A program made the position numbers and the translations under genes. A stretch of DNA of 64,000 nt from Streptomyces sp. ISL-94 (GTDB lineage Bacteria; Actinomycetota; Actinomycetes; Streptomycetales; Streptomycetaceae), in contig NZ_JAGGOZ010000027.1 in NCBI RefSeq assembly GCF_018614075.1, positions 1 through 64,000 on the forward strand. The letters run 5' to 3'. Within the stretch, counting starts at the first letter, position 1. Each line of letters opens with the position of its first letter. The notes beneath the pieces are model-generated. The model saw only the letters and a program-made list of their open reading frames with translations. It had not been told where the DNA came from and searched no databases. Shown one piece after another: positions 23,080 through 50,163 of the stretch.

Positions 23080-23163
23080 GGCACCGACCCCTCCTTGGAG
23101 TGGTCTTCTTCACTCACCTTGACAACTCAACTCAACGCAATCAGTCCACTACGCTTGGTGAAC

Positions 23164-24294
23164 ATGAAGATCGCTTTCGTGGGAAAGGGCGGCAGCGGCA
23201 AGACGACGCTGTCCTCCCTCTTCATCCGCCACCTCGCCGCCAATGAAGCCCCCGTCGTCGCGGTGGACGCCGACATCAACCAGCACCTGGGCGCCGCGCT
23301 CGGACTCGGCGAGGACGAGGCAGCCGAACTGCCCGCCCTGGGCGCGCACCTGCCCCTGATCAAGGAGTACCTGCGGGGTTCCAACCCGCGCATCGCGTCC
23401 GCCGACACGATGATCAAGACCACCCCGCCCGGCCGCGGCTCGCGCCTGCTGCGGATCACCGAAGACAACCCGGTCTACGCGGCCTGCGCGCGCACCCTCC
23501 TGCTCGACGGGGAGCCCGTACGGCTCATGGCCACCGGCCCGTTCACCGAGGCCGATCTGGGCGTGGCCTGCTACCACTCCAAGGTCGGGGCGGTCGAGCT
23601 CTGCCTCAACCACCTCGTCGACGGCCCCGACGAGTACATGGTCGTCGACATGACAGCAGGCTCGGACTCCTTCGCCTCCGGCATGTTCACCCGCTTCGAC
23701 GTGACCTTCCTGGTCGCCGAGCCGACCCGCAAGGGCGTCTCCGTCTACCGCCAGTACAAGGAGTACGCCCGGGACTTCGGGGTCTCGCTCAAGGTCATCG
23801 GGAACAAGGTGCAGGGCCCGGAGGACATCGAATTCCTCCAGGACGAGGTGGGCGAGGACCTGCTGGTCACCGTCGGGCACTCCGACTGGGTGCGCGCCAT
23901 GGAGAAGGGCCGCCCAGCCGCCTTCGAGCTGCTGGAGGCGACCAACCGGCTCGCCCTCCAGTGCCTCCAGGACGCGGCCGACGACTCCTACGCGCACCGC
24001 GACTGGGAGCGGTACACCGAGCAGATGGTGCGGTTCCACCTCAAGAACGCAGAGAGCTGGGGCAACGCCAAGACCGGGGTCGACCTGGCGGACCAGGTCG
24101 ACCCCGATTTCGTCCTGCGCGAGGGGGTCGAGGCAATCGGAGGGGCCGAGGGCCTCGAAGGGGCGGAGGGCCTCGAAGGGGCGGAGGGCCTCGAAGGGGC
24201 CGCAGCGCTGGAAGGAGCCGAGGCCCTCGAAGGGGTCGAGGCGCTCGTCAGTCCTCGTCCGCACCCTCATCAGCCGGCCCCGCAGCCGGCTTGA
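23164..24294 (+). CDS. CooC/ParA-like ATPase with repeated C-terminal tail
   Basis: 376 residues from ATG 23164; GTG 23158 is possible. Deviant Walker A FVGKGGSGKTTLSSLF at the N-terminus, then VVAVDADINQHLGAALGLG and YMVVDMTAGSDSFASGMF (switch regions), the pattern of CooC/nickel-insertion ATPases and related MinD-like proteins. After residue about 325 the chain becomes six imperfect repeats of a GAEGLE hexapeptide encoded by an 18-bp minisatellite, then a Pro/His tail (PRPHPHQPAPQPA). The last 47 bp overlap the convergent lipoprotein gene. Target metalloenzyme not apparent here. Confidence 0.82.
   Translation: MKIAFVGKGGSGKTTLSSLFIRHLAANEAPVVAVDADINQHLGAALGLGEDEAAELPALGAHLPLIKEYLRGSNPRIASADTMIKTTPPGRGSRLLRITEDNPVYAACARTLLLDGEPVRLMATGPFTEADLGVACYHSKVGAVELCLNHLVDGPDEYMVVDMTAGSDSFASGMFTRFDVTFLVAEPTRKGVSVYRQYKEYARDFGVSLKVIGNKVQGPEDIEFLQDEVGEDLLVTVGHSDWVRAMEKGRPAAFELLEATNRLALQCLQDAADDSYAHRDWERYTEQMVRFHLKNAESWGNAKTGVDLADQVDPDFVLREGVEAIGGAEGLEGAEGLEGAEGLEGAAALEGAEALEGVEALVSPRPHPHQPAPQPA
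24142..24249 (+). repeat. 18-bp minisatellite, six units, in coding sequence
   Basis: Units start at 24142, 24160, 24178, 24196, 24214 and 24232. Units 2 and 3 are identical, unit 1 differs from them by one base, and units 4-6 are more diverged. The frame is kept, giving Glu/Gly/Leu/Ala hexapeptides. It lies at the very end of the ATPase gene. Confidence 0.9.
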
Positions 24295-25549
24295 CCTCGG
24301 CGGGGGCCGCCGGCGGCGCGGGCGGCGGCCCCGCGGTCAGGAACTTCGCCCAGCCCTGCTTCGGCGACTCGCCGACATCGAGGGTGCGCATCCACTCCAG
24401 GGTCTTCGGGTCCTGGGCGTCCAGCCAGTCCGCCAGCTCGCGGAACGGCACGCAGCGGACGTCCTTCCGGGTGCACATGCTCTTGATGGACTCCTCGACG
24501 GCGCGCATGTAGGTGCCGCCGTTCCAGGACTCGAAGTGGTTGCCGATGATCAGCGGTGCGCGGTTGCCCTGGTAGGCACGGTCGAAGGCCTGCCCCAGGC
24601 CGTCGCGCATCTGGTCGCCCCAGTACTGGTGCTGCGAGGGGTCGCCCTGCGAGGTCGTCCCGGACTGGTTGACCATGTAGTTGTAGTCCATGCTCAGCGT
24701 GTCGAAGGCGCGGCCCGGCATGGGCACCAGCTGCAGCGGCAGGTCCCACAGCCCGTCCGTCTTCTTGGGCCAGATCTGCTTGCTGATGCCGCTGGAGTCG
24801 TAGCGGAAGCCCATGTCCTTTGCCGCCAGCATGAAGTTCTTCTGGCCCTCCAGGCACGGCGTGCGGGCCCCGATCAGCTCCTTGTCGTAGTCGAAGGGGA
24901 GGGGCGCCATGTCCTTCAGGCCCGCGTTCGTCTTCCAGTTCTTGACGAAGGACTTGGCCTGGTTGATCTCGCTCTTCCACTCGTCGACCGACCAGGTGCC
25001 GACGCCGCCGTCGGGACCGCAGAAGTGGCCGTTGAAGTGGGTGCCGATCTCGTTGCCCTCCAGCCAGGCGGCGCGCACCTGGGTGGCGGTGTCCTTGATG
25101 CCCTGGAGGTCGCCGAAGCCGATGTCGGAGCGGCCGGGTGAGTGCTGCGGGGCGGTGTAGAGGGAACGCTTCTCCTCCGGAAGCATGTACACACCACTGA
25201 GGAAGTACGTCATGCGGGCGTTGTACTGCTTGCCGACCTCGCGGAAATGCGAGAAGAGCTTCTGGCTGTCCTCGCCGGCGCCGTCCCACGAGAACACCAC
25301 GAACTGCGGGGGCTTCTCGCCGGGCTTCAGCTTCTCCGCCTTTTGTACGTTCGGCTGACTGCCGGTGTACGCGGTCGAACCGTCGCCGATGAGCCGGTTG
25401 ACGCTGCCGGGGGCATCGGGGGCATGGGCGCCCTTGTTGGGCCCGGTGGCTGGGGACTTGGCGGGCTTCGAGGAGCTGCAGCCGGCAACTCCCAGGACCA
25501 ACGCCGTGGCGACCAGGCCGCCGGCGATTTTCTTCGTGGCGGCGATCAT
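24248..25549 (-). CDS. Polysaccharide deacetylase-like lipoprotein
   Basis: 433 residues from ATG 25549 (GAGGTGGGG upstream). Signal peptide with lipobox LGVAGC; a Ser/Pro/Lys linker follows. The body has the fold cues of carbohydrate esterase family 4: VVFSWDGAGEDS at the first strand (Asp), then GNEIGTHFNGHFCG with a His pair (NGH) and IGNHFESWNGG near the C-terminus. It is anchored outside the membrane and may act on cell-wall or capsule glycans; substrate not predicted. The C-terminus is Pro/Ala-rich and acidic. It overlaps the ATPase gene tail-to-tail by 47 bp. Confidence 0.8.
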   Translation of the reverse strand: MIAATKKIAGGLVATALVLGVAGCSSSKPAKSPATGPNKGAHAPDAPGSVNRLIGDGSTAYTGSQPNVQKAEKLKPGEKPPQFVVFSWDGAGEDSQKLFSHFREVGKQYNARMTYFLSGVYMLPEEKRSLYTAPQHSPGRSDIGFGDLQGIKDTATQVRAAWLEGNEIGTHFNGHFCGPDGGVGTWSVDEWKSEINQAKSFVKNWKTNAGLKDMAPLPFDYDKELIGARTPCLEGQKNFMLAAKDMGFRYDSSGISKQIWPKKTDGLWDLPLQLVPMPGRAFDTLSMDYNYMVNQSGTTSQGDPSQHQYWGDQMRDGLGQAFDRAYQGNRAPLIIGNHFESWNGGTYMRAVEESIKSMCTRKDVRCVPFRELADWLDAQDPKTLEWMRTLDVGESPKQGWAKFLTAGPPPAPPAAPAEVKPAAGPADEGADED

Positions 25550-25783
25550 CCGCCCCACCTCTCCCTCGCAGTTCCGTTTCAGGGCTTCCGCGCCGCAACG
25601 TCCCATGCGGTCCACTTTGAGGAAGATGTGACAAGCCGTACAAAATGATTAATCACCCTTGAGTGCTAATTCCTAGGCTATTTGCCGGTATTGACCACCA
25701 CTTCTCTTTACTGTCCATTACCATCCATTTACCGAGTGTTGAGACTCCCGCCGCTTCACCCCTCCCCCGAGGAGACGGGACCT

Positions 25784-28141
25784 ATGACAGCCCCTTCCCC
25801 CACCCCCACGAACCTCGCCGCGGACCTGTCCGCCTCCATCGCCGTCTTCCTGATCGCCCTGCCGTTCTCGCTCGGCATCGCCCTGGCCACCGGTGCACCG
25901 CTCCAGGCGGGACTGGTCGCCGCGGCGGTCGGCGGAATCATCGCCGGGCGGCTCGGCGGCGCACCGCTCCAGGTGAGCGGGCCCGCGGCCGGCCTCACCG
26001 TCGTCAGCGCCGAGTTGATCCAGCGCTACGGCTGGCGCACCACCTGCGCCATCACCGTGCTCGCCGGCTGCTGCCAGCTCGGGCTGGCCGCGCTGCGCAC
26101 CGCCCGGTCCGCGCTCGTGGTCAGCCCGGCCATCGTGCACGGCATGCTCGCCGGCGTCGGCGTGACGATCGCCATCGCCCAGCTGCACATCGTGCTCGGC
26201 GGCACTCCGCAGAGCTCGGCCGTGGCCAACGTCCGCGGGCTGCCCGCCCAATTGGCCGATCTGCATCCGGCGGCGCTCGGCGTCAGCGCGCTGACACTGG
26301 CCGTCCTGCTCGCCTGGCCGCGGCTGCCCGGACGGGCCGGCCGCGCCCTGCGCAAGGTCCCCGCCGCGCTCGCCGCCGTGGCGACGGCCACCGCCGTCGC
26401 CACGCTGGCCCGCCTCACCCTGCCCCTGGTGGACCTGCCGTCCTGGCGCAGCCACGCCCTGCCGGAACTGCCCGAGGGCCCGGTCCTCGGCATCATCGCT
26501 GCCGTACTGACCATCACCCTGGTCGGCAGTGTGGAGAGCCTCCTCTCCGCGGTCGCGACCGACAAGGCGATCGCCTCCGAGCGGCGTACGGGCAACCGCC
26601 CGCGCCGCGCCGACCTGGACCGGGAACTGCGTGGCCAGGGCGCGGCGAACATCATCTCGGGGGCGCTGGGCGGCCTGCCCGTCGCCGGCGGGGCCATGCG
26701 CAGCGTGGCGAACGTCAAGGCCGGGGCCGTCAGCCGGCGGTCGGCCGTTCTGCACGGGCTCTGGATCCTGCTCGCGGCCGCACTCCTCGCCCCCGCCCTC
26801 GACCTGGTCCCGCTCGCCGCGCTGGCCGCTCTGGTGATGGCGGTGGGGGTGCAGATGGTGAGCGCCACCCACCTGCGTACCGTCACCCGGCATCGCGAGG
26901 TCCTGGTCTATGCGACGACGATCGCGGCGGTGGTGCTCGGCGGTGTGCTGGAGGGAGTGGCCATCGGGATCGCGGTCGCCGTGGCGGTCGCGCTGTACCG
27001 GCTCACGCGGACCCGGATCACGGTGGAGGAGCGGGGCGGCATCCACCGCGTGCGGGCCCGCGGCCAGTTGACCTTCCTCGCCGTCCCCCGGCTGAGCCGC
27101 GTACTCAGCCACATTCCGCACGATGCACGCGTGGTGGTCGAGCTGGACGGCTCGTTCATGGACCACGCGGCGCACGAGACGCTCCAGGACTGGCAGGACT
27201 CCCATCTGGCGCACGGCGGCGCGCTGGAGATCACCGGCCGCTCCGCCGACCGGTCCCGGCCCTGGCAGCAGCGCCTCGACGGGAGCGGAGCCCAGCGCGC
27301 GGACCACCACTGCTGCCGCCCGTGGACCCCGTGGAAGAACCACTGCGACCACCGGTCCGCCGCCGGCGGCTCCGGCAGCGCCGAAGGCCGTACGGTGCCG
27401 GGCTCGACCGCGGCCACCGGCACCGAGGCGCAGACGCCGGCGCCCCGCCGGCGCGGCGCCGGTCAACTGGCCAACGGGATCAGCGCCTTCCAGCGCGATA
27501 CCGCGCCGCACGTACGGGACGAGCTGGCCCGGCTGGCCCGCGAAGGGCAGCGGCCCTCCCAGCTCTTCCTCACCTGCGCCGACTCCCGCCTGGTGACCAG
27601 CATGATCACGGCCAGCGGGCCGGGCGACCTGTTCACCGTCCGCAACGTCGGGAACCTGGTCCCGCTGCCGGGCGCCGAGTCCACCGACGACTCGGTCGCG
27701 GCTGCCATCGAGTACGCGGTGGACGTGCTCAAGGTGGACAGCATCACGGTGTGCGGGCACTCGGGCTGCGGGGCCATGCAGGCCCTGCTCAACTCCGCGC
27801 CCGGAGCACCGATGACCCCGCTGCGCCGCTGGCTGCGCCACGGGCTGCCCAGCTTGGAGCGGATGGCCAGCCGGAACCACGCCTGGGCCCGGATCTCGGG
27901 CCGGCTGCCGGCGGACGCCGTGGAACAGCTGTGCCTGACCAATGTGGTCCAGCAGCTGGAGCACCTGCGGGCCCATGAGTCGGTGGCCAGGCGGCTCGCC
28001 GAGGGCACCCTGGAGCTGCACGGGATGTACTTCCACGTGGGCGAGGCCCAGGCATACCTGCTCTCCGAGGGCGAGGACTTCTTCGACTGCCGCGTCTTCG
28101 ACACCGTCGGAGCCGACGGAGCAGTGGGACAGAACGCCTGA
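25784..28141 (+). CDS. SulP anion transporter fused to beta-carbonic anhydrase
   Basis: 785 residues from ATG 25784 (GGAGACGGGACCT upstream). Residues about 10-400 form the SulP transporter with many membrane helices (ADLSASIAVFLIALPFSLGI first), then a STAS domain (about 425-490). Residues about 560-785 are a beta-carbonic anhydrase: zinc ligands Cys598, His659 and Cys662 (TCADSR, VCGHSGC) and the catalytic Asp600-Arg602 dyad. The linker (508-523) contains His-His-Cys-Cys and His-Cys-Asp-His clusters. The fusion suggests bicarbonate (or sulfate) uptake coupled to CO2/HCO3- interconversion. Followed by a terminator. Confidence 0.93.
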   Translation: MTAPSPTPTNLAADLSASIAVFLIALPFSLGIALATGAPLQAGLVAAAVGGIIAGRLGGAPLQVSGPAAGLTVVSAELIQRYGWRTTCAITVLAGCCQLGLAALRTARSALVVSPAIVHGMLAGVGVTIAIAQLHIVLGGTPQSSAVANVRGLPAQLADLHPAALGVSALTLAVLLAWPRLPGRAGRALRKVPAALAAVATATAVATLARLTLPLVDLPSWRSHALPELPEGPVLGIIAAVLTITLVGSVESLLSAVATDKAIASERRTGNRPRRADLDRELRGQGAANIISGALGGLPVAGGAMRSVANVKAGAVSRRSAVLHGLWILLAAALLAPALDLVPLAALAALVMAVGVQMVSATHLRTVTRHREVLVYATTIAAVVLGGVLEGVAIGIAVAVAVALYRLTRTRITVEERGGIHRVRARGQLTFLAVPRLSRVLSHIPHDARVVVELDGSFMDHAAHETLQDWQDSHLAHGGALEITGRSADRSRPWQQRLDGSGAQRADHHCCRPWTPWKNHCDHRSAAGGSGSAEGRTVPGSTAATGTEAQTPAPRRRGAGQLANGISAFQRDTAPHVRDELARLAREGQRPSQLFLTCADSRLVTSMITASGPGDLFTVRNVGNLVPLPGAESTDDSVAAAIEYAVDVLKVDSITVCGHSGCGAMQALLNSAPGAPMTPLRRWLRHGLPSLERMASRNHAWARISGRLPADAVEQLCLTNVVQQLEHLRAHESVARRLAEGTLELHGMYFHVGEAQAYLLSEGEDFFDCRVFDTVGADGAVGQNA

Positions 28142-28191
28142 AACCACCGCGCGCCTGAACCGATAGCCTCCCGTATCCGTGCAATCGTTTT

Positions 28192-28228
28192 GGCCCCTTC
28201 CCGCACCCTGCAGCGGGAGGGGGCCTTT
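28192..28228 (+). terminator. Terminator of the SulP-carbonic anhydrase gene
   Basis: A 13-bp stem with one G-T pair (28192-28204 with 28213-28225), 8-nt loop, followed by TTT. Confidence 0.85.
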
Positions 28229-28351
28229 CGCGCGCGCATCCGGCCGTGCTATAGGTCTAAACCAATCCTCGGCTACCCCTTGTCACCTGGGCCGCTGACT
28301 GATGAGCTATGCCCCGGGGACACAACGGACACCCTGGGAAAGGGAGATGTC

Positions 28352-30307
28352 GTGAGCAATGAAAGCCTGGCCAATCTGCTCAAGGAGGAGCGGCGGTTCG
28401 CACCGCCCGCCGATCTGGCCGCCGCCGCCAACGTGACAGAGGCTGCGTACACACAGGCCGACGCGGACCGGCTGGGCTTCTGGGCCGAGCAGGCCCGGCG
28501 GCTGACCTGGGCCACCGAGCCGACCGAGACGCTCGACTGGACGAATCCGCCCTTCGCGAAGTGGTTCGCGGACGGCAAGCTGAACGTGGCGTACAACTGC
28601 GTGGACCGCCACGTCGAGGCCGGCAACGGCGACCGCGTCGCCATCCACTTCGAGGGCGAGCCCGGCGACAGCCGCGCGATCACCTACGCCGAGCTCAAGG
28701 ACGAGGTCTCCAGGGCCGCCAACGCCCTGACCGAGCTGGGCGTCCAGCCCGGCGACCGCGTCGCCGTCTACCTGCCGATGATCCCCGAGGCAGTCGTCGC
28801 GATGCTCGCGTGCGCCCGCGTCGGCGCCGCGCACTCCGTGGTGTTCGGCGGGTTCTCCGCCGACGCCGTCGCCTCCCGCATCCAGGACGCCGACGCCAAG
28901 CTGGTCATCACCGCCGACGGCGGCTACCGCCGCGGCAAGCCCACCGCGCTGAAGCCCGCCATCGACGAGGCCGTCGGCAAGTGTCCGCAGGTCAAGAACG
29001 TGCTCGTGGTGCGGCGCACCGGCCAGGACACCGCCTTCACCGAGGGCCGCGACGTCTGGTGGCACGAGGCCGTCGGCCGCCAGTCCACCTCGCACACCCC
29101 GCAGGCCTTCGATGCCGAGCACCCGCTCTTCATCCTCTACACCTCGGGGACCACGGGTAAGCCGAAGGGGATCCTGCACACCTCGGGCGGTTACCTCACG
29201 CAGACCGCGTACACCCACCACGCGGTCTTCGACCTGAAGCCGGAGACCGACGTCTACTGGTGCACCGCCGACATCGGCTGGGTGACCGGGCACTCGTACA
29301 TCGTCTACGGGCCGCTCGCGAACGGCGCCACCCAGGTGATGTACGAGGGCACGCCGGACACCCCGCACCAGGGCCGGTTCTGGGAGATCGTGCAGAAGTA
29401 CGGCGTCAGCATCCTCTACACGGCGCCGACGGCCATCCGCACGTTCATGAAGTGGGGCGACGACATCCCCGCGAAGTTCGACCTGTCGAGCCTGCGCGTC
29501 CTGGGCTCGGTCGGCGAGCCGATCAACCCCGAGGCCTGGATCTGGTACCGCAAGCACATCGGCGGCGACCGCTGCCCGATCGTGGATACCTGGTGGCAGA
29601 CCGAGACCGGCGCGATGATGATCTCCCCGCTGCCGGGCGTCACCGACACCAAGCCGGGCTCCGCGCAGCGCGCCCTGCCCGGGATCTCCGCCACCGTCGT
29701 GGACGACGAGGCGAACGAGGTCCCCAACGGCGGAGGCGGCTACCTGGTCCTCACCGAGCCGTGGCCTTCGATGCTGCGCACCATCTGGGGTGACGACCAG
29801 CGCTTCATCGACATCTACTGGTCGCGCTTCGAGGGCAAGTACTTCGCGGGCGACGGCGCCAAGAAGGACGACGACGGCGACATCTGGCTGCTCGGCCGGG
29901 TGGACGACGTCATGCTGGTCTCCGGCCACAACATCTCCACCACCGAGGTCGAGTCGGCGCTCGTCTCGCACCCCTCCGTCGCCGAGGCGGCCGTGGTCGG
30001 CGCCAACGACGAGACCACCGGCCAGGCCATCGTGGCCTTCGTCATCCTGCGCAGCAGCGCCTCCGAGACCGAGAGCCTGGTCGCGGAGCTGCGCAACCAC
30101 GTCGGCGCCACGCTCGGCCCGATCGCCAAGCCGAAGCGGATCCTGCCGGTCCAGGAGCTGCCGAAGACCCGCTCGGGCAAGATCATGCGCCGCCTGCTGC
30201 GCGATGTGGCGGAGAACCGCGCCGTCGGCGACGTCACCACGCTCGCCGACTCCTCGGTCATGGACCTGATCCAGAGCCAGCTGCCGTCCGCGGCCAGCGA
30301 GGACTGA
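28352..30307 (+). CDS. acsA: Acetyl-CoA synthetase
   Basis: Makes acetyl-CoA from acetate, ATP and CoA through acetyl-AMP. 651 residues from GTG 28352 (AGGGAGATGTC upstream). The AMP-binding signature is YTSGTTGKPKG; then TWWQTETG, and the CoA-site and hinge region VDDVMLVSGHNIS. The regulatory lysine, acetylated in other bacteria, is Lys610 in PKTRSGKIMRR. Full length for the family. The gene has its own terminator and a 120-bp leader after the previous terminator, so it is probably monocistronic. Acetate metabolism matters in Streptomyces for polyketide precursors. Confidence 0.98.
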   Translation: MSNESLANLLKEERRFAPPADLAAAANVTEAAYTQADADRLGFWAEQARRLTWATEPTETLDWTNPPFAKWFADGKLNVAYNCVDRHVEAGNGDRVAIHFEGEPGDSRAITYAELKDEVSRAANALTELGVQPGDRVAVYLPMIPEAVVAMLACARVGAAHSVVFGGFSADAVASRIQDADAKLVITADGGYRRGKPTALKPAIDEAVGKCPQVKNVLVVRRTGQDTAFTEGRDVWWHEAVGRQSTSHTPQAFDAEHPLFILYTSGTTGKPKGILHTSGGYLTQTAYTHHAVFDLKPETDVYWCTADIGWVTGHSYIVYGPLANGATQVMYEGTPDTPHQGRFWEIVQKYGVSILYTAPTAIRTFMKWGDDIPAKFDLSSLRVLGSVGEPINPEAWIWYRKHIGGDRCPIVDTWWQTETGAMMISPLPGVTDTKPGSAQRALPGISATVVDDEANEVPNGGGGYLVLTEPWPSMLRTIWGDDQRFIDIYWSRFEGKYFAGDGAKKDDDGDIWLLGRVDDVMLVSGHNISTTEVESALVSHPSVAEAAVVGANDETTGQAIVAFVILRSSASETESLVAELRNHVGATLGPIAKPKRILPVQELPKTRSGKIMRRLLRDVAENRAVGDVTTLADSSVMDLIQSQLPSAASED

Positions 30308-30339
30308 CGGGGCTGCCCGACCGGGGCGCAACGGGTTGA

Positions 30340-30378
30340 AGGAGGGTGTTCGGCGCGTAGCGCGCCGGACACCCTCCT
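30340..30378 (+). terminator. Terminator of acsA
   Basis: An 18-bp stem with one G-T pair (30340-30357 with 30361-30378) and a 3-nt loop, 33 bases after the acsA stop. Very stable, likely bidirectional. Confidence 0.88.
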
Positions 30379-30421
30379 GCCGTTTAAGGTGAAGATCACC
30401 TGATGCGACCGGCCGACCCTG

Positions 30422-30450
30422 TAAAATAGGAAAAGCGTCAATATATGACG
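30422..30450 (+). promoter_or_regulatory. Possible nhaA promoter with inverted repeat
   Basis: TAAAAT at 30422-30427 is a good -10 match in an otherwise G/C-rich region, and a 5-bp inverted repeat CGTCA-N5-TGACG lies at 30436-30450 in the expected start area. No convincing -35 hexamer is seen. It may be an operator for a salt or pH regulator; that is inference. Confidence 0.35.
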
Positions 30451-30531
30451 TGCTCAAGTTTTCAGGGTGCGCCGGGAAGTCTGGTCGGCAACAGCGTTTG
30501 TCATGCCGTCGACCGCCCGGAGGTGCCCCCC

Positions 30532-31965
30532 GTGGCCACGCCCACGCCTACCCCCACCCCCAGCCGCAAGCTGCTCGGCCGGCTCTCACTGCCCGAGCGC
30601 CGCTTCGTCGCCGACGCCCTGCGCGCCGAGACCGTCGGTGGCGTGCTGCTGCTCGTGGCCGCGATCGCCGCCCTGATCTGGTCCAACACGCCCGCCCTGG
30701 CGGACAGCTACCACACGGTCCGGGACCTCCACCTCGGCCCCGGCTCCCTGGGCCTGGACCTGTCGATCCAGCACTGGGCCGCCGACGGCCTCCTCGCGGT
30801 CTTCTTCTTCGTCGCCGGCATCGAACTCAAGCGCGAGCTGGTCGCGGGTGACCTGCGCGAGCCCAAGGCGGCCGCCCTCCCCGTCATCGCCGCCCTCTGC
30901 GGCATGGCCGTCCCGGCCCTGGTCTACGCCCTGACCAACATGTCCGGCGGCGGCTCGTTGAACGGCTGGGCGGTCCCGACCGCGACCGACATCGCCTTCG
31001 CGCTCGCGGTCCTCGCGGTCATCGGCACCTCGCTGCCGTCCGCCCTGCGCGCCTTCCTGCTGACCCTCGCCGTCGTCGACGACCTCTTCGCCATCCTGAT
31101 CATCGCCGTGTTCTTCACCAACGAGCTCGACTTCCTGGCGCTCGGCGGCGCTGTCGTGGGTCTGGCCCTCTTCTGGTTCCTGCTCCGCAAGAACGTCCGC
31201 GGCTGGTACGTCTACGTCCCGCTCGCCCTGGTCATCTGGGGCCTGATGTACAACAGCGGCATCCACGCCACCATCGCCGGTGTCGCCATGGGCCTGATGC
31301 TCCGCTGCACCCGCAAGGACGACGAGCGCCACTCCCCCGGCGAGCACATCGAGCACCTGATCCGGCCCCTCTCCGCCGGTCTCGCCGTCCCGCTCTTCGC
31401 CCTGTTCTCCGCCGGGGTCTCCCTCTCCGACGAGTCCATCGGCCAGGTGTTCACCCGGCCGGAGACCCTCGGTGTCGTCCTCGGCCTGGTCGTCGGCAAG
31501 ACCGTGGGCATCTTCGGCGGCACCTGGCTGGCCGCCCGCTTCACCAAGGCCGAGCTCAACGAGGACCTGGCCTGGCCCGACGTATTCGCCGTGGCCTCGC
31601 TCGCCGGCATCGGCTTCACCGTCTCGCTGCTGATCGGCGAGCTCGCCTTCGCCGGCGACGCGGTCCTCACCGACGAGGTCAAGGCCGCCGTCCTGATCGG
31701 CTCGCTCATCTCCGCCGTCCTCGCCTGTGTCCTGCTCAAGCTCCGCGACCGCAGGTACAGGGCGCTCACCGAGGCCGAGGAGCGCGACGAGGACCTGGAC
31801 GGCATCCCGGACATCTACGAGGAGCACAACCCCGAGTACCACCTGCGGATGGCGAGGATCTACGAGAACAAGGCCGCAGAGCACCGCCGCAGGGCCGAGG
31901 CGGCAGCCGCCGGTCCGGCCGAAGCGGCAGCCGGTTCCCACGCAGAGGGCGACCGTCCGGCATGA
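30532..31965 (+). CDS. nhaA: Na+/H+ antiporter NhaA
   Basis: 477 residues from GTG 30532, chosen because GGAGG lies 8 bases upstream; ATG 30445 would add 29 residues without membrane character. Twelve membrane helices are expected. The sodium-site residues are visible: PTATDIAFAL (Asp133 equivalent) and LAVVDDLFAI (Asp163-Asp164 pair). The family core ends near residue 405; a charged C-terminal tail (EERDEDLDGIPDIYEEHNPE, then Ala/Glu repeats) extends into the cytoplasm. It starts a rightward group with the holin-like gene and an alpha/beta hydrolase gene. Confidence 0.96.
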   Translation: MATPTPTPTPSRKLLGRLSLPERRFVADALRAETVGGVLLLVAAIAALIWSNTPALADSYHTVRDLHLGPGSLGLDLSIQHWAADGLLAVFFFVAGIELKRELVAGDLREPKAAALPVIAALCGMAVPALVYALTNMSGGGSLNGWAVPTATDIAFALAVLAVIGTSLPSALRAFLLTLAVVDDLFAILIIAVFFTNELDFLALGGAVVGLALFWFLLRKNVRGWYVYVPLALVIWGLMYNSGIHATIAGVAMGLMLRCTRKDDERHSPGEHIEHLIRPLSAGLAVPLFALFSAGVSLSDESIGQVFTRPETLGVVLGLVVGKTVGIFGGTWLAARFTKAELNEDLAWPDVFAVASLAGIGFTVSLLIGELAFAGDAVLTDEVKAAVLIGSLISAVLACVLLKLRDRRYRALTEAEERDEDLDGIPDIYEEHNPEYHLRMARIYENKAAEHRRRAEAAAAGPAEAAAGSHAEGDRPA

Positions 31966-48388: not shown

Positions 48389-48501
48389 CCCGTGGCTCCC
48401 CCGGCCCCGCGAACGCTCCGTGAAAACCGGATTTCGTCTCCGGCCGCAGGTCCGCTAAAGTAATCGATGTCGCCAGGACAGCAGTGCTGCAAGGCGACGA
48501 T

Positions 48502-48575
48502 CGGGGTGTAGCGCAGCTTGGCAGCGCGCTTCGTTCGGGACGAAGAGGTCGTGGGTTCAAATCCCGCCACCCCGA
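48502..48575 (+). tRNA. tRNA-Pro (anticodon CGG)
   Basis: A full cloverleaf: acceptor CGGGGTG with CACCCCG, D-arm GCGC...GCGC, anticodon arm CTTCG-TTCGGGA-CGAAG with CGG at positions 34-36, T-arm GTGGG-TTCAAAT-CCCGC, discriminator A. CCA is not encoded, as usual in Streptomyces. Confidence 0.98.
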
Positions 48576-48592
48576 CTTCGTAAGACCAGGTC

Positions 48593-48625
48593 AAGGGCCT
48601 GATCCGCATAGCGGATCAGGCCCTT
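48593..48625 (+). terminator. Terminator of tRNA-Pro
   Basis: A 15-bp perfect stem (48593-48607 with 48611-48625), 3-nt loop, 17 bases after the tRNA. Confidence 0.9.
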
Positions 48626-48669
48626 CCTGCGTTGTCGTGATCGCTTGGGAGATCAAGGTCCGTTCTGTG

Positions 48670-50163
48670 GTGTCTGCTTCTTCTACCGTCTCCATAGCCG
48701 CGCGGATACGCGGGTTCCGTCCGGCGTGGCTGTCGCCGCGGGTGCTGCGCACCGAGGTGCTGGCCGGTCTGGTGGTCGCGCTCGCGCTGATTCCGGAGGC
48801 CATCTCGTTCTCGATCATCGCCGGAGTTGATCCGGCGGTCGGGCTGTTCGCGTCCTTCACGATGGCGGTGACGATCGCCGTGGTCGGCGGCAGGCCGGCG
48901 ATGATCTCGGCGGCGACGGGGGCCGTGGCCCTGGTCATCGCGCCGCTCAACCGGGAGCACGGGTTCGGGTACCTGGTCGCCGCGGTCATCCTGGGGGGCC
49001 TCTTCCAGATCCTGCTGGGCGCGCTCGGCGTCGGCAAACTGATGCGGTTCATCCCGCGCTCGGTGATGGTCGGCTTCGTCAACTCCCTCTCGATCCTGGT
49101 GTTCATGGCCCAGGTGCCCGAGCTGCGGAACGTGCCGTGGGCCGTGTATCCGCTGCTGGCGGCCGGGCTGGCGCTGATGGTCTTCTTCCCGAAGGCGACC
49201 ACGCTGGTGCCGGCGCCGCTGGTGTCCATCGTGATCCTGACCGCGATCACGGTGGCGGCCGGGATCGCGGTGCCCACGGTCGGCGACAAGGGGGCCCTGC
49301 CCTCCTCGCTGCCGGTGCCGGGCCTGCCCGACGTCCCGTTCACCCTCGACACCCTGGCCACCATCGCCCCGTACGCCTTCGCCATGGCGTTGGTCGGGCT
49401 GATGGAGTCGCTGATGACGGCGAAGCTGGTCGACGAGATCACCGGCACGCGCTCGTCGAAGACGCGGGAGTCGATCGGCCAGGGCATCGCGAACATCGTC
49501 ACCGGCTTCTTCGGCGGCATGGGCGGCTGCGCGATGATCGGCCAGACGATGGTCAACGTGAAGGTGTCGGGCGCCCGGACCCGGCTGTCCACCTTCCTTG
49601 CGGGCGCCTTCCTGCTGGTGCTGTGCATCGTCTTCGGCCCGGCCGTCTCCCGGATCCCCATGGCCGCGCTGGTCGCCGTGATGGTGATGGTCTGCTTCGC
49701 GACCTTCGACTGGCACTCCATCGCGCCGAAGACGCTCAAGCGGATGCCCGCGGGCGAGATCACGGTGATGGTGCTGACCGTCGTGTGCGTGGTCGTCACC
49801 CACAACCTCGCGGTGGGCGTGGTCGCCGGCTCGGTCACGGCGATGGTCATCTTCGCCAAGCGCGTGGCGCGGCTCGCCGACGTCACTTCGGTGACGGATC
49901 CCGACGGCGGCCAGATCGTGTACGCGGTGAGCGGCGCGCTGTTCTTCGCCTCCTCCAACGAGCTGGTCGGCCGGTTCGACTACGCGGGCGACCCGGCGCA
50001 CGTGGTCGTCGACCTGTCCGCGGCCCACATCTGGGACGCCTCGTCGGTCGCCACGCTCGACGCGATCGAGCACCGCTACGCGCAGCTCGGCAAGACCGTC
50101 GAGATCACCGGCCTCAACGAGCCCAGCGCCCGCCTGTACGGGAGCCTCACCCGGCGCTCTTGA
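48670..50163 (+). CDS. SulP-family anion transporter
   Basis: 497 residues from GTG 48670 (48667 GTG also possible; AAGGTC upstream). Transmembrane core (LRTEVLAGLVVALALIPEAI and MVGFVNSLSILVFMAQVPEL, with VTGFFGGMGGCAMIGQTMVN as the signature) and a C-terminal STAS domain (IVYAVSGALFFASSNELVGR and HVVVDLSAAHIWDASSV). It likely carries sulfate, bicarbonate or another anion. Unrelated in detail to the fused copy at 25.8 kb. It follows the tRNA terminator. Confidence 0.92.
   Translation: MSASSTVSIAARIRGFRPAWLSPRVLRTEVLAGLVVALALIPEAISFSIIAGVDPAVGLFASFTMAVTIAVVGGRPAMISAATGAVALVIAPLNREHGFGYLVAAVILGGLFQILLGALGVGKLMRFIPRSVMVGFVNSLSILVFMAQVPELRNVPWAVYPLLAAGLALMVFFPKATTLVPAPLVSIVILTAITVAAGIAVPTVGDKGALPSSLPVPGLPDVPFTLDTLATIAPYAFAMALVGLMESLMTAKLVDEITGTRSSKTRESIGQGIANIVTGFFGGMGGCAMIGQTMVNVKVSGARTRLSTFLAGAFLLVLCIVFGPAVSRIPMAALVAVMVMVCFATFDWHSIAPKTLKRMPAGEITVMVLTVVCVVVTHNLAVGVVAGSVTAMVIFAKRVARLADVTSVTDPDGGQIVYAVSGALFFASSNELVGRFDYAGDPAHVVVDLSAAHIWDASSVATLDAIEHRYAQLGKTVEITGLNEPSARLYGSLTRRS

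Follow-up and report, generated by a model that had tools for sequence, protein, structure and literature searches.

A short Cys/His/Trp motif sits in the otherwise free linker of a SulP–beta-carbonic anhydrase fusion of Streptomyces; comparison of homologous sequences argues that it is a real conserved element, a probable metal-ion site that may have a part in positioning the anhydrase. The fusion lies in a window of 64,000 nucleotides of Streptomyces sp. ISL-94, the whole stretch of DNA analyzed here. The core of the motif, delimited by alignments and a pattern search, spans residues 508–523 of the protein (HHCCRPWTPWKNHCDH; 27305–27352, forward strand). Fusions of this type are already known; the conserved linker motif is, as far as we have found, the new part. 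What we observe is its conservation, its distribution among lineages, the near-joint presence and absence of its ligands, and the predicted disorder and variable length of the flanking sequence.

The gene (25784–28141, forward strand) was defined by its open frame, its translation and its homologues. It codes for 785 residues and starts with an ATG, whose columns are invariant across 14 aligned sequences (the window and 13 further loci), with a Shine-Dalgarno-like GAGGAG at 25769–25774. The SulP anion-carrier domain comes first (residues 11–374; 25814–26905), with a Pfam match to PF00916 of 188.8 bits against a curated cut-off of 23.2 (1.6e-55) and with the support of the AlphaFold2 model, in which the transmembrane helices extend to about residue 409, and of Foldseek. 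It is followed by a diverged short STAS-like domain (residues 411–486; 27014–27241). A STAS domain, as proposed in the initial annotation, is favored by the strand-strand-helix-strand-helix-strand order of residues 411–484 in the model and by a phmmer alignment of residues 12–489 with SLC26Dg (5da0), but the Pfam score (PF01740/PF13466) stays below threshold, at 16.9 bits for the fragment 411–489 against a cut-off of 22.6. The linker (residues 487–560; 27242–27463), delimited by comparison of fusions and by pLDDT, is hypervariable in length and sequence, and gives way to a long helix predicted by AlphaFold2 (residues 559–587; 27458–27544) that opens the anhydrase domain. The beta-carbonic anhydrase domain itself (residues 594–755; 27563–28048) matches PF00484 (Pro_CA) at 5.3e-42, well above the cut-off, and holds a complete active site, Cys598, Asp600 and Arg602 (Cys-x-Asp-x-Arg) with His659 and Cys662 (His-x2-Cys). 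Carrier and enzyme thus share one open frame, in the order of the known SulP–carbonic anhydrase fusions, exactly as the initial annotation had it; the linker and catalytic residues that it named are also found at those positions in the translation. The protein has one full-length match in its own genome, whose assignment to Streptomyces agrees with the nearest homologues. A second SulP-type carrier in the window (48484–50163, forward strand; 559 residues) has no anhydrase in frame and is 29% identical to residues 8–514 of the fusion.

The five catalytic residues are kept in 81 of 81 aligned sequences and are present in all 197 fusions of the larger alignment described below. There, His659 and Cys662 alone provide an unbiased test, because retention of a row required Cys-x-Asp-[SA]-Arg, that is, Cys598, Asp600 and Arg602. 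CO2 hydration by the predicted beta-carbonic anhydrase domain would be expected; the substrate of the carrier is probably bicarbonate. Against the BicA profile NF050096 the protein scores 117.8 bits (cut-off, 880). Foldseek matches the model to SLC26Dg (5da0/5iof) and BicA (6ki1) over the carrier and to CcaA (5swc) over the C-terminal part. BicA (6ki1) and SLC26Dg (5da0) have the carrier fold in common with the window protein at 23–26% identity but have no fused anhydrase; CcaA shares the fold and active site of the anhydrase at 31% identity but is a carboxysomal soluble enzyme unfused to a carrier.

Bifunctional SulP anion transporter/carbonic anhydrase fusions were reportedly described by Felce and Saier in 2004/2005, and public records from Rhodococcus, Nocardia and Arthrobacter carry the annotation "bifunctional SulP family inorganic anion transporter/carbonic anhydrase". 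Such fusions outside Streptomyces have the same domain order and are similar over the whole length, with 40–47% identity to seven named examples. One paper discusses SulP–anhydrase fusions in Streptomyces, citing Felce and Saier (PMC5489568), and another gives Rv3273 (mtCA3) of M. tuberculosis as an example among other named fusions, a protein of 764 residues with a sulfate-transporter domain followed by a beta-anhydrase domain, the latter cloned and active (PMC6834203). The initial annotation was therefore right that such fusions were known in actinobacteria. A comparable working principle is seen in the vectorial CO2 hydration of DAB2/MpsAB, where a beta-anhydrase-like site is coupled to a membrane transport partner; the likeness ends there, as the membrane partner is unrelated and the subunits are separate (PMC13144422). 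We found no description of the linker motif in the open-access literature, including the accessible parts of PMC5489568, PMC6834203, PMC3924187 and PMC13144422, which is not proof of absence, nor any open-access paper with the letters RPWTPW.

Conservation of the linker was judged on relatives fetched with six peptides, none of them from the linker, of which the best 80 of 201 (65–86% identity of the best segment) were kept as named homologues. Their linkers do not align outside the core. The pattern [C/H]x(0-2)-C-x8-H-x(0-2)-C is nevertheless found in the linker of 79 of these 80, a figure that applies to the closer relatives; in the one exception (L084) the core is lost. The Cys/His cluster to which the initial annotation had drawn attention is therefore kept between close homologues. 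A wider set was assembled from 215 extracted rows: 12 were dropped for want of a fused anhydrase or for a broken frame (L092, L112, L155, L158, L159, L163, L165–L168, L178 and L195), a further 11 that repeated genes already represented were taken out, and five relatives from a plasmid collection were added, which gave 197 fusions with linkers of 18 to 288 residues (median, 57). The site is complete in 166 of them. As these 166 rows were picked for the site, the fair test is that of the 80 named homologues.

Among the 166, the consensus of the core is CRPWTPWxNHxC, with RPWTPWxN between the ligands, and its invariant part is Cys511-x2-Trp514-x2-Trp517-x2-His520-x(0-2)-Cys. Cys511, Trp514, Trp517 and His520 are each present in 166 of 166, and the C-side cysteine follows His520 by one, two or three residues. 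Residue 515, a position fixed by none of the search patterns, is threonine in 164 of the 166, encoded by each of the four threonine codons in one row or another, which argues for selection at the protein level. Past the core, the linker is poor in both ligand types (0.17% Cys and 1.5% His). Of the eight linker residues listed in the initial annotation, Cys511 and His520 proved fixed, but the second N-side ligand varies (His508 in 79, His509 in 38 and Cys510 in 82 of the 166) and Asp522 and His523 are not conserved (31 and 29 of 81 aligned sequences, respectively). That annotation made no mention of the Trp-Pro-Trp core around which the cluster is wrapped, and which occurs cysteine-free in other actinobacterial fusions.

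The motif is widespread in Streptomyces. A strict DNA pattern for CRPWxxWxNH matched 141 of 199 Streptomyces genomes, once each and never more, and a reversed-control pattern matched none of the 199. In the genome of the window the only match was 27314–27343, so further sites of the core pattern there were rejected. Of the 58 Streptomyces genomes with no strict match, 55 were searched with the protein (the three left out were less complete), and at E 1e-100 a relative turned up in 30 of the 55: 20 of these relatives carry the complete site in variant form, eight do not and two have no fused anhydrase in frame. In a draw from the class, 28 of 394 genomes matched the core pattern, 26 of them Streptomyces. 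Among 56 pattern loci, 54 lie in the fusion gene (L092 and L112 as broken-frame copies) and two, from another genus (L117 and L118), lie outside it. The 54 Streptomyces loci (L087–L116 and L119–L142), which include the window itself, comprise 30 of the 141 sites of the Streptomyces draw and 24 more from the class draw; having been fetched with the core pattern, they cannot test its conservation. Some records were unusual. Carrier and anhydrase are in different frames in four Streptomyces loci (L092, L112, L178 and L195), by sequencing error or decay. The fusion in a record titled Microtetraspora glauca (L056) shares 69% identity with the window protein and has a Streptomyces-type core; the name of that record may be wrong. 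In L166, L167 and L168 the SulP gene is another paralogue, and a carbonic anhydrase-like frame stands apart from it nearby on the same strand; in Rhizobium and Streptomyces clavuligerus plasmid records SulP and anhydrase are separate features under one match.

The gene order around the fusion is largely conserved. From 23095 to 31965 the window encodes a ParA-like ATPase, a divergent gene with no Pfam match, the fusion, an acetyl-CoA synthetase (acs) and NhaA, and in the 80 named loci (best 80 of 201) matches to these neighbors number 77, 80, 76 and 75 for the ParA-like gene, the divergent gene, acs and nhaA. Where a neighbor is missing, the contig mostly stops close to the gene; this does not account for L073, with no acs match in about 1.5 kb downstream, or for L061 and L081, with no ATPase match in about 4 kb upstream. 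The fusion gene, being largely syntenic, is thus an old chromosomal part of Streptomyces; its S. coelicolor counterpart may be SCO3562, a tentative identification for which we found no paper. A repeated tail of the GLEGAE type closes the ParA-like frame at about 24150–24260 (forward strand), where it runs over the 3' end of the gene on the opposite strand. Upstream of the fusion lies a conserved DNA element of about 35 nt, recognized from the 80 named loci, with three TTAC units 10–11 nt apart (CTTTACTNTNCATTACNNTYCRTTTACYGAGNGTTG; 25706–25742, forward strand). Its 27-nt core was found with at most five substitutions in 78 of the 80 (best 80 of 201), or 79 if L052 is read whole-length, L069 being the locus that has no element; shuffled controls gave 0 of 80. 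The element has a single site in its own genome at up to three mismatches, and a shorter core at up to two mismatches again gave one site, as did a reversed control. The apparent distance from element to gene differs among clades. The element is possibly a single-target operator. No Rfam RNA element matched 25500–28400 to E 1, and no link of the gene to Zur or a zinc regulon was found in the open-access literature.

Structure prediction gives the core no fold. In the AlphaFold2 model of the window protein, linker residues 488–557 have pLDDT below 50, at about 30 with the core included, and are predicted to be disordered; the linker of a cysteine-free relative is also below 50. Neither model supports a folded loop or docking. 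A PDB profile search with the core gave no match to E 10, and in a Pfam search with ten core peptides, two of them one residue off, one matched DUF7949 (E 0.029) and the others nothing. With no similar profile in Pfam or the PDB, membership of a known zinc-finger or zinc-binding linker family was rejected. The linker was also rejected as a rigid spacer, since both arms of the tether vary, from 13 to 68 residues between the end of the STAS domain and Cys511 and from 4 to 221 between the core and the anhydrase helix.

The explanation that best fits these observations, and to which we give close to even credence, is a flexible tether with a metal-clipped docking bead. In this view, the beta-carbonic anhydrase would stay attached to its SulP carrier by a flexible tether in the cytosol, and the interconversion of CO2 and bicarbonate would take place beside that carrier. 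A bead on two loose arms cannot fix a distance; what it can do is bind something. The tether would bear this single conserved bead, whose older form would be a Trp-Pro motif, and Streptomyces and its near relatives would have added ligands on both sides, [C/H]x(0-2)-C-RPWTPWxN-H-x(0-2)-C. These ligands would most likely grip one Zn(II) or similar ion and draw the Trp-Thr-Pro-Trp stretch together as a small loop, and the loop would most likely dock on the carrier, the STAS domain, the anhydrase, the membrane surface or another protein. The metal, the shape of the loop, the docking and bicarbonate as the substrate are what we infer here.

The variation of the ligands bears on this directly. Four Cys/His ligands are found in 164 of the 166 complete sites, with exchange of Cys and His at the second position (HxC in 29, CxC in 53 and CC in 82); two, L105 and L204, have no clear fourth soft ligand. 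The second Cys/His falls at 509 or 510 in the same number, 164 of 166, against a mean of 130.8 and a maximum of 140 in 2000 shuffles of column 510, a comparison that ignores relatedness. In the 192 fusions with a recognizable core, Cys511 and the C-side cysteine are both present in 166 and both absent in 23; Cys511 stands alone in three and the C-side cysteine in none (some cysteine-free rows were placed by the looser pattern of any PW). In L216 and L218 the cysteines and the N-side histidine are replaced together and AWTPW is retained, and in L188 and L189 all four ligands are replaced and PWLPW is retained. On a FastTree tree built with the linker excluded, the complete site was gained or lost at least six times among rows with a core and the C-side spacing changed at least four times, while the kind of second ligand switched at least twice, or four times if the two rows with no second ligand are counted. 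An independent-pairs test of joint gain and loss had four pairs only and was not significant (p 0.125–0.25). The order from cysteine-free to HxC to CC or CxC depends on the rooting, which was chosen at the Arthrobacter row. Counting against the metal-clipped bead are the fusions that lack the site or the core and the mere two switches of ligand kind that the tree needs.

The same data could be read as a redox switch, in which oxidative stress leads to a disulfide between the paired cysteines, or to another modification of their thiols, and the tether opens or closes with no metal. The near-constant joint presence or absence of Cys511 and the C-side cysteine would fit, as would the frequency of CC (82 of 166) and CxC (53 of 166). 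A disulfide, however, needs no histidine, and His520, like Cys511, is present in 166 of 166, with histidine also serving as second N-side ligand in 29 of 166; moreover, SulP C-termini lie in the cytosol, which is reducing. The fixed His520, and the fact that His can replace one of the cysteines, lead us to favor a metal over a disulfide; we regard the redox switch as unlikely, although it is the strongest of the competing readings.

The fusions with no cysteine site put the Trp-Pro core in a different light. Searching 79 genomes of the class, 61 of the family and the plasmid collection with the protein returned 19 of them, including three Streptomyces-family members (L213, L221 and L222). None of the 19 has the Cys/His pattern, yet 18 have PW in the linker, against 5.68 expected on shuffling their own residues; the exception is an Arthrobacter fusion (L225). 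Typical cores are RW[FWL]xPW or FAPWxxWQ, for example RWFAPWSSWQ, and the linker of L156, a relative belonging to a different family, contains MVPWSSWQ and is free of cysteine. Cysteines elsewhere in the linker are found in L213 (two), L146 and L226 (one each). Of the seven named non-Streptomyces fusions, the five examined (L223–L227) all lack the Cys/His site; four have the PW core, and in two of these a run of histidines follows it. A His-rich stretch directly behind the Trp-Pro core is seen in L149, L223 and L227, where the Cys/His site is absent, and by its sequence might be a separate metal-binding route at the same place. The arrangement HxC...HHC is seen in some genera of the Streptomyces family, and Streptomyces itself shows HxC, CC or CxC. 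The Trp-Pro core thus looks older, being present with no Cys/His site in 18 of the 19 fusions from outside the lineage, and the Cys/His ligands look to have been added later within the Streptomyces family.

The Trp-Pro core could itself be the working part, a short linear motif binding the membrane surface or a protein, with the Cys/His residues a lineage-specific choice that holds no metal. Besides its occurrence in the fusions outside the lineage, the constancy of Trp514 and Trp517 (166 of 166 each) and the persistence of the PW core where the ligands are gone (L188, L189 and L210) speak for this. Four soft ligands with near-fixed spacing in 164 of 166 are, in turn, hard to explain with neither an ion nor a bond, and we judge this reading to be quite improbable.

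The initial annotation had suggested that the cluster could bind a metal and feed or sense the anhydrase; read in this way, it would store, chaperone or sense zinc and thereby load or regulate the zinc site of the enzyme. The idea has in its favor that one chain would carry both a zinc enzyme and, next to it, a likely metal site, and that the site lies within the fusion gene in the 54 Streptomyces pattern loci examined. Against it, 31 of the 197 fusions have no complete site (23 have neither cysteine, three are partial, and in five the core is deleted or unrecognizable) and all 31 retain all five catalytic residues, three of which were the condition of selection. In one of them (L190) part of the sequence ahead of the anhydrase is lost together with the core, so this copy may be decaying. 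The variable distance of 4 to 221 residues between core and anhydrase helix also counts against it. Stand-alone beta-anhydrases are not known to require a Cys/His cluster of this kind. A role in feeding or sensing is thus weakly supported at best, and we find it slightly more doubtful still than a Trp-Pro core acting by itself. Chance clustering of Cys and His in a drifting linker, which its hypervariability and the missing AlphaFold2 fold might suggest, is hardly credible and was rejected on the retention of the pattern in 79 of 80 named homologues (best 80 of 201); for the 166 complete-site fusions, shuffling of the linkers gives an expectation of 0.62 matches.

A bolder reading, to which we attach only a slim chance, is a metal- or redox-dependent latch. 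The ion-bound Trp-Thr-Pro-Trp loop would dock the anhydrase under the carrier, and the tether would otherwise hang loose, so that zinc or redox state would set the coupling of transport to hydration in Streptomyces; the older motif would then be a permanent latch that was made switchable. As models of a CO2/bicarbonate metabolon, transporter–anhydrase fusions are about as simple as they come, and we know of nothing reported on what holds the enzyme near the pore in them. The conserved linker motif offers one short, mutable element with which such coupling may be tested, and the natural cysteine-free form and the natural deletions would serve as its controls.
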